Assembly: GCA_031278395.1 (NCBI GenBank)
Contig: JAITKM010000037.1
Location: 1-38,557 of the forward strand
Length of the DNA: 38,557 nucleotides
Source: Deltaproteobacteria bacterium
Lineage (GTDB): Bacteria > Bdellovibrionota_C > UBA2361 > SZUA-149 > JAITKM01
Reading direction: 5' to 3'
The position numbers and the translations under genes were made by a program. Positions 1-2,621 of the stretch are shown here, piece after piece (position 1 is the stretch's first letter; each line of letters begins with the position of its first letter). The notes under the pieces are model-generated. The model had not been told where the DNA came from. It searched no databases and saw only the letters and a list, made by a program, of their open reading frames with translations.

Positions 1-1557
1 AGCTCGGACATCTCTGAATCAAGTAGTTCCTCATCTACAAGCTCTTTGTCATGCGGAACTAATGAACAGAACGAGTGTCATAACACTTGTTCTACTTCTT
101 ATAACAAATGTAACACTGATTGTAATTCCGACTCGTATTGTGAACTTTGCTGTTCAAATAGTCTTACTGAGTGTTATGAGAGTTGTTTAGATTGCGTCCC
201 TCTAATTCCAGATTGCACCCCGTCGTCGTCTTCGTCGTCCGATTCTAGCGTTGATAGCAGCTCCGACAGTTCAGATAGCTCTAAATCAAGTAATTCGTCG
301 GACAGCTCGGATAGCTCGGATTCCAGCAGCTCGGATAGTTCAAAATCAAGTAGTTCGTCGGACATTTCGGACAGCTCTGAATCAAGCAATTCAAGCACAA
401 ACAGCAGCGGCGGCAACAGCAGCAACACAGTTACAGTCGAAGCGTGTGCCGATGGGTATCCGGGACTTTGTGGGTCTGTAAGTTATTCATACGTATGTAA
501 CAGCTCAGGCACAATAGAATTATCCAATCCAAGCCAGACTCTTACCTATGTTCCAACTGGCAATCTGGCAGATTGGAGTGTTTCAAACGGCGCTAGCTTT
601 AGTCCGAATACAGTAGGATCAACCAGTTTATCAGTCACTGTTTGCGGTCCTGCGGATTCCGGTTTCTCACCATGCAAGGAGGTTACTTTCCGTCCTAGAT
701 CTCCGGCTACTCAATATGGAAGTGAAAATGACGAAGGATATCTTGCGGCTCTTGCCGCCGGTTGCTCTGAATCAAGCAGTTCGTCGGACAGTTCGGATAG
801 CTCGGAATCTAGCAGTTCGTCGGACAGCTCCGATAGTTCTGAATCCAGCATTTCGTCGTCAAGCTCCAGCAGTAGCAGCGTGGGAGGAGTGTTGTTAGGC
901 GTAACGGGTGGAACCTGCCAGTCAACGGGCAACCCTAATACGAGAAAGATTCAACACACAGTGCAGGCAAGTAATGTCAGCATGCCAACAGGGTGGAGTT
1001 ATGGAAATGTGAATATTCCTGAAGTTGAGGTGTATTGTTTGTCGCATCATGATGTGAATGTTCAAAACATTACTTTCTATGACAGTTCAAGCACGCCAAT
1101 GAATTCTCTTACAGACGTGTCTATCAGACATGAGGCCAGATGCCTATGCAATGGTTGCCCGGCAGATTCAACGTGCAATAGCAATGCTGCATGTTTGGCA
1201 TGCTTAGCTAGGTGTCGAACCTGCTATAACAACAATACAGAATGCCATGGAATTAGCGAATGTGTGCCGGAAGAATGCCAGCCCGGAACCTCAAGGTTGC
1301 TAGACGGAACATGTTTGAATTGTTCAGTGCCGGCTAACCCGCCGTCTCCTGTTGGTGGTTTAGGCGGTGCTCAAGTTCCGATGTTTAAGTTATACACGCC
1401 GTGGGAGTGCACAAGTGTTTCGTCGCCTAGTAGTGGCTTAGGAGGCGCTCGAGTTCCAATGTTTAAGCTACATACGCCATGGGAATGCACAAGTGCTTCG
1501 TCGCCTAGCAATGGTTTAGGCGGTGCTCAAGTTCCAATGTTTGTAGGAGCGCCGTAG
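1..1557 (+). CDS. Ser/Asp-repeat, Cys-rich surface protein (5' end outside window)
   Basis: The reading frame is open from base 1 (it begins SSDISESSSS), so this is the C-terminal part of a longer protein; the TTG at 46 is not a credible start. Two Ser-rich tracts built from SSDSSDSSES-like units are encoded at about 200-400 and 763-880. They flank a less repetitive segment with Cys residues and beta-strand-like sequence. A Cys cluster follows at about 1140-1325 (pattern CxCxGCPxxxxC...CxxCxxxC), resembling small disulfide-rich extracellular modules. The end is made of 78-bp tandem repeats. I recognise no enzyme domain. The composition suggests a secreted or cell-surface stalk or adhesin-like protein, which is inference. 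The next gene also encodes an exported protein. The Ser/Asp codons are themselves DNA repeats (AGTTCGTCGGACAGC), so length variation by recombination is plausible. Confidence 0.75.
   Translation, partial: SSDISESSSSSSTSSLSCGTNEQNECHNTCSTSYNKCNTDCNSDSYCELCCSNSLTECYESCLDCVPLIPDCTPSSSSSSDSSVDSSSDSSDSSKSSNSSDSSDSSDSSSSDSSKSSSSSDISDSSESSNSSTNSSGGNSSNTVTVEACADGYPGLCGSVSYSYVCNSSGTIELSNPSQTLTYVPTGNLADWSVSNGASFSPNTVGSTSLSVTVCGPADSGFSPCKEVTFRPRSPATQYGSENDEGYLAALAAGCSESSSSSDSSDSSESSSSSDSSDSSESSISSSSSSSSSVGGVLLGVTGGTCQSTGNPNTRKIQHTVQASNVSMPTGWSYGNVNIPEVEVYCLSHHDVNVQNITFYDSSSTPMNSLTDVSIRHEARCLCNGCPADSTCNSNAACLACLARCRTCYNNNTECHGISECVPEECQPGTSRLLDGTCLNCSVPANPPSPVGGLGGAQVPMFKLYTPWECTSVSSPSSGLGGARVPMFKLHTPWECTSASSPSNGLGGAQVPMFVGAP
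1357..1554 (+). repeat. 78-bp in-frame tandem repeat, about 2.5 copies
   Basis: Copies start at 1357, 1435 and 1513; the third is cut after 42 bp by the stop codon. Each full unit encodes 26 residues of the form GLGGAxVPMFKLxTPWECTS followed by xSSPSx. The copies differ at several mostly synonymous positions, so the duplication is not brand new. Each full unit brings one Cys and one Trp. The function is unknown. Confidence 0.9.
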
Positions 1558-1604: not shown

Positions 1605-2411
1605 ATGTCTATAAATCAAAAAAGTTTATTGATTGTATTTGCTTATCTAGCGTTTTACCCGACTGCTGTTTTTTCTCAAATATCAATGCAGCAGTCGGAG
1701 CATTTGTTAACATCCAGTGGATTAAATAGTCTGGCAACTAGTACACCAGGCTGTGACGGTGAGACAACAAGTGGGGTTAGCGTGCAGCGCGTGAAGCAAC
1801 CTTTTGCAGATTGCAATAGTATATCCTCTTGCAAAACTGCCAATACTATAGGGGCTGTTGATCATGCGACAGCTACTTTTACGTGTAAAGATAATACTTG
1901 TTATACATGGCGTTTAGTTTCTCGTGCGACAATAGGTGGTGTTGCTTATGAAGTATGGCATGACGATGTTGGACTGACTTGGTCAGCCAGAATCATAAAT
2001 GGGAGCACGCAGACTTTTAACTGGTGTCATGCAAGCGGAGCTAATAATGGTGTGGGAAATGCTTATGCCTCAAACGATCCTAACGATTACTGCGACAGCA
2101 GTAGTTATCAAAACCAGACAAATCCTATATCGTTATGTAAGGAAGAGAATTATAGTGAGGTTTTATATGCTAAAAATTCTAAAGGCGGTTTAGGCGGTTG
2201 GTACTTGCCTACGGTTAATGATTATCTTCTGGCGCGTAAGCACGGGATAAGACGGGTTTTGGGTGATATGAACAACGAATGGACATCTACGGTTTATGGG
2301 GATGATACGCGCTACGCGTGGTATTTTGGGAGTGGTGGCCAGTTCGACAGCATCTACAACCGCAACTACTACTACTACGTGCGTTGTGTTACGGCGGTGG
2401 TGGTGCCGTAG
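1605..2411 (+). CDS. Secreted DUF1566/Lcl-type C-lectin-fold protein
   Basis: The 268-residue product has a clear Sec signal peptide: hydrophobic residues 7-24, likely cleavage after VFS before QISMQ. The start is supported by AGGAGAG about 8 nt upstream of ATG 1605. The C-terminal half carries the DUF1566 (Lcl C-terminal) signature: a W-rich core, GGLGGWYLPTVNDY, NNEWTSTVYG, and the terminal YYYVRCV motif. These domains adopt a C-type-lectin-like fold and are common in surface-exposed proteins. Residues 245-258 (2337-2378) are encoded by codons ending almost only in C (TTC, GAC, AGC, ATC, TAC, AAC), unlike the rest of the gene, which favours T or A endings. That is the pattern of a retroelement-diversified variable region. 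It lies downstream of the Ser-rich gene, 47 nt apart, and may be co-expressed. The family call is from motifs seen by eye. Confidence 0.7.
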   Translation: MSINQKSLLIVFAYLAFYPTAVFSQISMQQSEHLLTSSGLNSLATSTPGCDGETTSGVSVQRVKQPFADCNSISSCKTANTIGAVDHATATFTCKDNTCYTWRLVSRATIGGVAYEVWHDDVGLTWSARIINGSTQTFNWCHASGANNGVGNAYASNDPNDYCDSSSYQNQTNPISLCKEENYSEVLYAKNSKGGLGGWYLPTVNDYLLARKHGIRRVLGDMNNEWTSTVYGDDTRYAWYFGSGGQFDSIYNRNYYYYVRCVTAVVVP

Positions 2412-2431
2412 AGGGGCGTGTTCGGCATCCT

Positions 2432-2474
2432 CCGCTACTGCGGTCTGAGCGCAGCTTACTTGCCGCGAAGCGGC
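2432..2474 (+). other. Two GC-rich hairpins just past the DUF1566 gene stop
   Basis: CCGC-tact-GCGG lies at 2432-2443 and GCCGC-gaa-GCGGC at 2462-2474, followed by TCCTAAAAAAAC. The frame of the upstream gene stays open after its TAG up to a TAA at 2478-2480 and remains GC-rich, so this segment seems to belong with the unusual 3' end of that gene. No U-run follows, so an intrinsic terminator is unlikely. Small hairpins downstream of the variable region are a known feature of diversity-generating retroelement targets. Confidence 0.4.
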
Positions 2475-2589
2475 TCCTAAAAAAACTTGTTTGTAAAGGG
2501 GATCTCCGGGTTTACTGGCGTATGTTATAGCAAGAGAGGCACAAAAAGCTACAAAGGCTACAAAAAAAACTGCACCAGAAAAATAAAGA

Positions 2590-2621
2590 GAGGCACACAG
2601 CCAGTCATGGCTGTGTGCCTC
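2590..2621. repeat. Perfect 14-bp inverted repeat, 4-nt loop
   Basis: GAGGCACACAGCCA (2590-2603), loop GTCA, TGGCTGTGTGCCTC (2608-2621). The plus-strand side is followed by ATCAAAATATAAT, with no U-run. Read on the minus strand it is followed by CTCTTTATTTTTCTGG, which could act as a terminator for leftward transcription, but no leftward gene is visible here. A partial copy of the left arm (AAGAGAGGCACA) lies at about 2532-2543. Confidence 0.6.

Follow-up and report, generated by a model that had tools for sequence, protein, structure and literature searches.

In the diversity-generating retroelement (DGR) of the Bordetella phage BPP-1 (mtd-avd-TR-brt), the template repeat (TR), Avd, and a YMDD reverse transcriptase (RT) lie next to each other in one array, the variable repeat (VR) occupies the 3′ end of the target gene and differs from TR specifically at adenines, and inverted repeats follow VR and not TR. 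Phage DGR hairpins have stems of 7–10 bp and 4-nt GRNA loops and are located 4–34 bp from VR (PMC3240598). In Stenotrophomonas sp. SKA14, two TRs and six VRs, five of them in DUF1566 proteins, are found on one sequence record (PMC6642488). Remote targets have also been described: 76 remote variable proteins in cyanobacteria (PMC7517822), others in Treponema denticola (PMC4891356), and loci diversified in trans in Thiohalocapsa PB-PSB1 (PMC10907252). In the largest survey of DGRs in metagenomes, repeats were sought in the neighborhood of the RT, and by its own statement it could not detect remote targets (PMC8144416).

A window of 38,557 bp, which is the whole stretch of DNA analysed and all of contig C62, was examined in this study, and we estimate a probability of about 95% that its positions 2316–2429 represent the variable repeat (VR1) of a DGR, here DGR1, whose core is encoded on another contig (C1). 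The tract is assigned as a VR because it differs from its copy on C1 only at A and because that copy adjoins genes for Avd and a DGR-type RT. The original prediction, made from the window alone, had proposed a DGR target gene with its template repeat and reverse transcriptase elsewhere, a proposal that would fall if the genome held neither; both were looked for, and both are present on C1. The features of DGR1 and of a second DGR in the same genome are listed in Table 1.

Table 1. Coordinates of DGR1 and DGR2 features (positions without a contig name are those of the window)
Feature	Position	Strand	Remarks
Target (variable protein) gene	1605–2411	+	268 aa; from the list of open reading frames
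VR1	2316–2429	+	114 bp; ungapped match to TR1, aligned base by base
Hypervariable codons 248–257	2346–2375	+	Nine template AAC codons; TR1 FNNNNNRNNNNY, VR1 FDSIYNRNYYYY
Invariant 3′ part of VR1	2376–2429	+	Same as TR1 in the alignment; extends 18 bp beyond the stop codon
Weak hairpin CTGCG/CGCAG	2438–2454	+	Just past the end of TR–VR homology; −6.0 kcal/mol alone
Hairpin GCCGC-GAA-GCGGC	2462–2474	+	5-bp GC stem, 3-nt loop; 32 nt from the end of VR1; candidate target-site hairpin
TR1	C1:1046–1159		Template of VR1
avd	C1:1224–1616	Same as TR1	130 aa; bAvd PF22296 (6e-11, above cut-off); phrog_3206 "Avd protein of DGR" (5.6e-13)
RT1	C1:1589–2956	Same as TR1	455 aa, intact; IGNLTSQ at residue 225, YMDD at 257
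RT2	C45:837–2021	Opposite to TR2	IGNLTSQ, YVDD
TR2	about C45:330–531	Opposite to RT2	About 300 bp from RT2; template unrelated to TR1
VR2 (full-length TR2 copies)	C21:3677–3908; C12:7630–7856; C30:30787–31012; C48:855–1069; C51:555–789		Five contigs
Truncated TR2-like copy	C63:118–233		Without an open gene; abuts a dispersed repeat

Target Gene and Its NNC Codons

The product of the target gene begins with a hydrophobic stretch that, read by eye from MSINQKSLLIVFAYLAFYPTAVFSQ, resembles a signal peptide. Codons 245–258 (2337–2378; GGC CAG TTC GAC AGC ATC TAC AAC CGC AAC TAC TAC TAC TAC) are of the NNC form in 13 of 14 cases versus 32 of 244 (13%) elsewhere in the gene (hypergeometric P = 2e-10). 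Except for this tract and its immediate shifts, no run with at least 12 NNC per 14 codons occurs in the six frames of the whole window. Both the near-exclusive use of NNC codons in this part of the gene, unlike the rest, and the end of the tract at a C-terminal YYYVRCV had been noticed earlier, and both hold.

The original prediction had further assigned a DUF1566 domain with a lectin fold. A weak match between Lcl_C/DUF1566 (PF07603) and residues 120–262 is indeed present (E = 4.8e-4), but its score of 20.8 bits is under the Pfam gathering cut-off of 34.9, and the C-terminal domain may be called DUF1566-like at most. In DGR targets generally, the variable domain has a C-type lectin or Ig fold. 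A single-sequence structure model of the target had a pLDDT of 35 and was unusable, no match to the protein was found among solved structures, and no homologues were found in 46 genomes of the class. The product is probably exported and probably binds something variable, which would make it a secreted or surface binding protein.

Directly upstream lies a gene (window 1–1557, cut by the contig end) that encodes a Ser/Asp-rich and Cys-rich product and carries tandem repeats of 36, 60, and 78 bp. It may encode a surface stalk protein that is co-transcribed with the target gene.

Variable Repeat and Template

The genome assembly (1.71 Mb in 63 contigs, with an estimated contamination of 4.25%) was searched with window positions 2280–2500, which revealed a single other copy, at C1:1046–1159, with 94% identity. 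VR1 covers the last 31 codons (238–268), the stop codon, and 18 bp of 3′ sequence, and is wider than the tract originally delimited. Seven mismatches separate VR1 from TR1 (at 2346, 2350, 2353, 2355, 2367, 2370, and 2373), and all of them are at a template A (A>T in five cases and A>G in two). A accounts for 26 of the 114 TR1 bases, and the hypergeometric probability that all seven mismatches would fall at A by chance is 1.6e-5. Every change affects a first or second position within the nine AAC codons of TR1. The near-copy that had been expected elsewhere in the genome, with adenine-only differences and beside an RT gene, has thus been identified. Across the 114 bp there are no differences at bases other than A, which argues for recent copying of TR1 into VR1.

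Homology between the two repeats starts within coding sequence and extends to 18 bp past the end of the target gene, and the sequences flanking TR1 are unrelated to those flanking VR1. TR1 itself is within no recognizable gene, although it lies in a short open frame of 77 aa. An IMH-like homing site would lie in the invariant 3′ part of VR1.

The mechanism proposed here for DGR1 follows that of BPP-1 (PMC3240598) and the general scheme of DGRs. RT1, together with Avd, would copy TR1 RNA into cDNA, with random bases placed opposite TR1 adenines, and this cDNA, guided to VR1 by the invariant segment 2376–2429, would in trans take the place of the last part of the target gene. A mutable AAC codon would always yield NNC and never a stop; NNC encodes 15 amino acids, and nine such codons would therefore allow about 15^9 (4e10) protein variants.

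Core of DGR1

TR1, avd, and RT1 follow one another in this order on the same strand of C1, with avd and the RT gene within 0.5 kb of TR1. Similar to BPP-1, TR, Avd, and a YMDD RT are adjacent in one array, VR is at the 3′ end of the target gene, and the differences are adenine-specific. Different from BPP-1, the order is TR-avd-RT, and the target is not beside the core.

Most DGRs, though not all, have the accessory protein Avd encoded beside TR or RT. The Avd protein here is the sole bAvd in the genome and scores under the NCBIfam Avd equivalog cut-off. When it was considered as a 23S-intervening-sequence protein, its score was below the cut-off of that family. The best solved relative of RT1 by sequence is the reverse transcriptase of the 8ub7 series (2e-24), which we take to be the Brt–Avd–RNA complexes of Bordetella phage BPP-1, and the solved structures that follow, which include group II and retron-type RTs, match at 1e-8 or weaker. 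RT1 also matches phrog_1423 at 3e-69. In DGR enzymes the RT motif has the form [ILV]GxxxSQ instead of QGxxxSP, together with Y-x-DD, and, judged by its motifs and closest matches, RT1 is of the DGR type. As a group II intron or retron RT, it has NCBIfam scores far under the cut-off.

C1 also contains a complete rRNA operon (16S included) and chromosomal genes whose names, read from translations, are methionyl-tRNA formyltransferase and peptide deformylase. Genes of the window, named in the same manner, belong to the respiratory chain, tRNA synthetases, and other housekeeping functions. Neither contig looks like phage DNA and, different from phage BPP-1, the core of DGR1 is on a cellular contig with an rRNA operon. 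Because the assembly is fragmented and has the contamination given above, linkage of C1 with C62 rests on the template match and on their similar tetranucleotide composition (r = 0.97).

Hairpins and Activity of DGR1

Consistent with BPP-1, inverted repeats are present after VR1 and absent after TR1, the 3′ flank of which lacks such a hairpin and folds at only −1.6 kcal/mol. The two small hairpins of the original prediction both exist, but they are its weak point: they fall short of the BPP-1 type in length, and their folding is just slightly more stable than that of shuffled sequences (z about −1.5 to −2.4; −2.36 for a 28-nt segment containing the 2462–2474 hairpin). A hairpin of the phage type (7–10 bp GC stem with a GRNA loop), which is not stated as required for every DGR, was not found after VR1. 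Different from that form (PMC3240598), the 2462–2474 hairpin has a 5-bp stem and a 3-nt GAA loop, and its resemblance to the known target-site hairpin is only partial. Of the hairpins beyond the target gene, the strongest is formed by a perfect inverted repeat of 14 bp around a 4-nt loop (GAGGCACACAGCCA/TGGCTGTGTGCCTC) at window 2590–2621, about 160 bp past VR1, which is probably a terminator.

A short target-site hairpin near chance level, together with a target away from the core, would also suit a genuine DGR that no longer works, with VR1 as the frozen product of past homing. We regard this as unlikely, because the frames of RT1, avd, and the target are intact, YMDD is present, and drift at bases other than A, to be expected after long inactivity, is absent throughout the 114 bp shared by TR1 and VR1. 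DGR1 may be active at present.

Position of the Target Relative to the Core

A target is regarded here as remote (trans) when its distance from the RT exceeds about 5 kb. VR1 and the core of DGR1 are on separate contigs; the distance to the left contig end is 2.3 kb for VR1 (on C62) and 1.0 kb for TR1 (on C1). Target and core would come within 5 kb of each other only if these two left ends were joined head to head (divergently), with about 3.4 kb between VR1 and TR1; in any other join, target and RT would be over 15 kb apart. The closeness of both repeats to contig ends, and the presence in the first 600 bp of C1 of a dispersed repeat, a type of sequence at which assemblies tend to break, could indicate that target and core are chromosomal neighbors split by an assembly break between the two left ends. 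This arrangement is unlikely, since it needs that one orientation and since the two ends, searched for common sequence, showed no overlap. We infer that DGR1 acts over a trans distance.

Similar to the remote systems of cyanobacteria, T. denticola, and PB-PSB1, the VR genes in this genome are on other contigs than RT and TR and probably far from them, several targets are present, and repeats or mobile elements occur near DGR parts. Different from them, no VR or target at all is visible in this assembly beside either of the two RTs, RT1 on C1 and RT2 on C45.

A Second DGR in the Same Genome

TR2 is matched by five full-length copies, in which 21–25 of about 60 template A differ versus 8–19 of about 137 other bases (Fisher P from 1.5e-7 to 6e-4). 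Over the five copies, variable columns account for 46 of 63 A positions versus 29 of 139 others. These mismatch counts indicate that DGR2 has the same A signature as DGR1 with more background drift. No bAvd gene is located beside RT2, that of DGR1 being the only one in the genome. The truncated copy on C63 looks like a remnant. Since six contigs cannot all adjoin C45, most of the DGR2 copies must be remote.

Four TR2 targets match the Fibrobacter major-paralogue (Fib_succ_major) domain, two with scores above the cut-off and two just below it, and in one target of this type the domain is located behind Cys-rich repeats; the fifth target, on C21, is cut by the contig end. Different from those of the remote systems above, the targets in this genome look secreted, with Lcl_C-like or Fib_succ_major domains in place of kinase, NACHT, or other signalling domains. 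Similar to SKA14, a VR is present in a C-terminal domain resembling DUF1566/Lcl_C and there is more than one VR per genome. Different from SKA14, the targets are not on the contigs of the RTs, and each TR has its own set of targets.

A dispersed AT-rich repeat of about 130 bp (e.g., C1:about 239–369) has 82 matches in the genome, often at contig ends, and occurs within about 130 bp of three of seven TR2/VR2 copies (C21, C45, and C63). It is possibly a MITE-like element that helped to spread these copies. A more far-reaching proposal, which we consider doubtful, is that the two DGRs, each with its own template, operate exclusively in trans and serve at least six dispersed secreted or surface lectin-like genes, with target cassettes spread by this flanking repeat family.

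The notion that C1:1046–1159 is a duplicated or pseudogenized fragment of the target 3′ end, and that the NNC tract is simply an Asn/Tyr-rich coding stretch of low complexity, would fit the short open frame of TR1 and the compositional bias possible in Asn/Tyr-rich C-termini, but it is strongly disfavored and hardly credible, because drift would strike all bases and third positions whereas seven of seven changes are at A in codon positions 1 and 2, because the supposed fragment directly precedes avd and a DGR-type RT gene, and because TR2 differs from its five dispersed copies with the same preference for A.

Implications and Related Loci

Remote DGR targets are already known, and DGR1 and DGR2 add a case of a known mechanism with an off-locus target and a dispersed second set. 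Here the target was found from its own sequence, which led to RT1 and then to RT2 with its dispersed targets, none of which adjoins it. Should layouts of this type prove common, existing counts of DGR targets are too low, and a search from the target side for NNC/AAC tracts would find them. For the host bacterium, DGR1 would make one patch of a probable surface protein variable by retroelement rewriting, and the two systems together would provide a repertoire of probable surface-binding proteins that is programmed and can be expanded.

In searches for close relatives, no close copy was found in 58 related genomes, 46 genomes of the class, genome contigs, viral contigs, phages, or plasmids, and no Rfam family was found in the window. 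RT relatives in the genome-contig search, from Treponema, Planctomycetota, and Muribaculaceae MAGs, are only 27–31% identical, and the best phage match (36%) is to Burkholderia phage Magia. One genome of the same class (G029) contains a locus (L008; 108–485, 856–1047, and 1402–2433) with a DGR-like RT gene and, directly upstream of it, a candidate target gene and a template-like open reading frame; this locus appears to be an ordinary cis arrangement.
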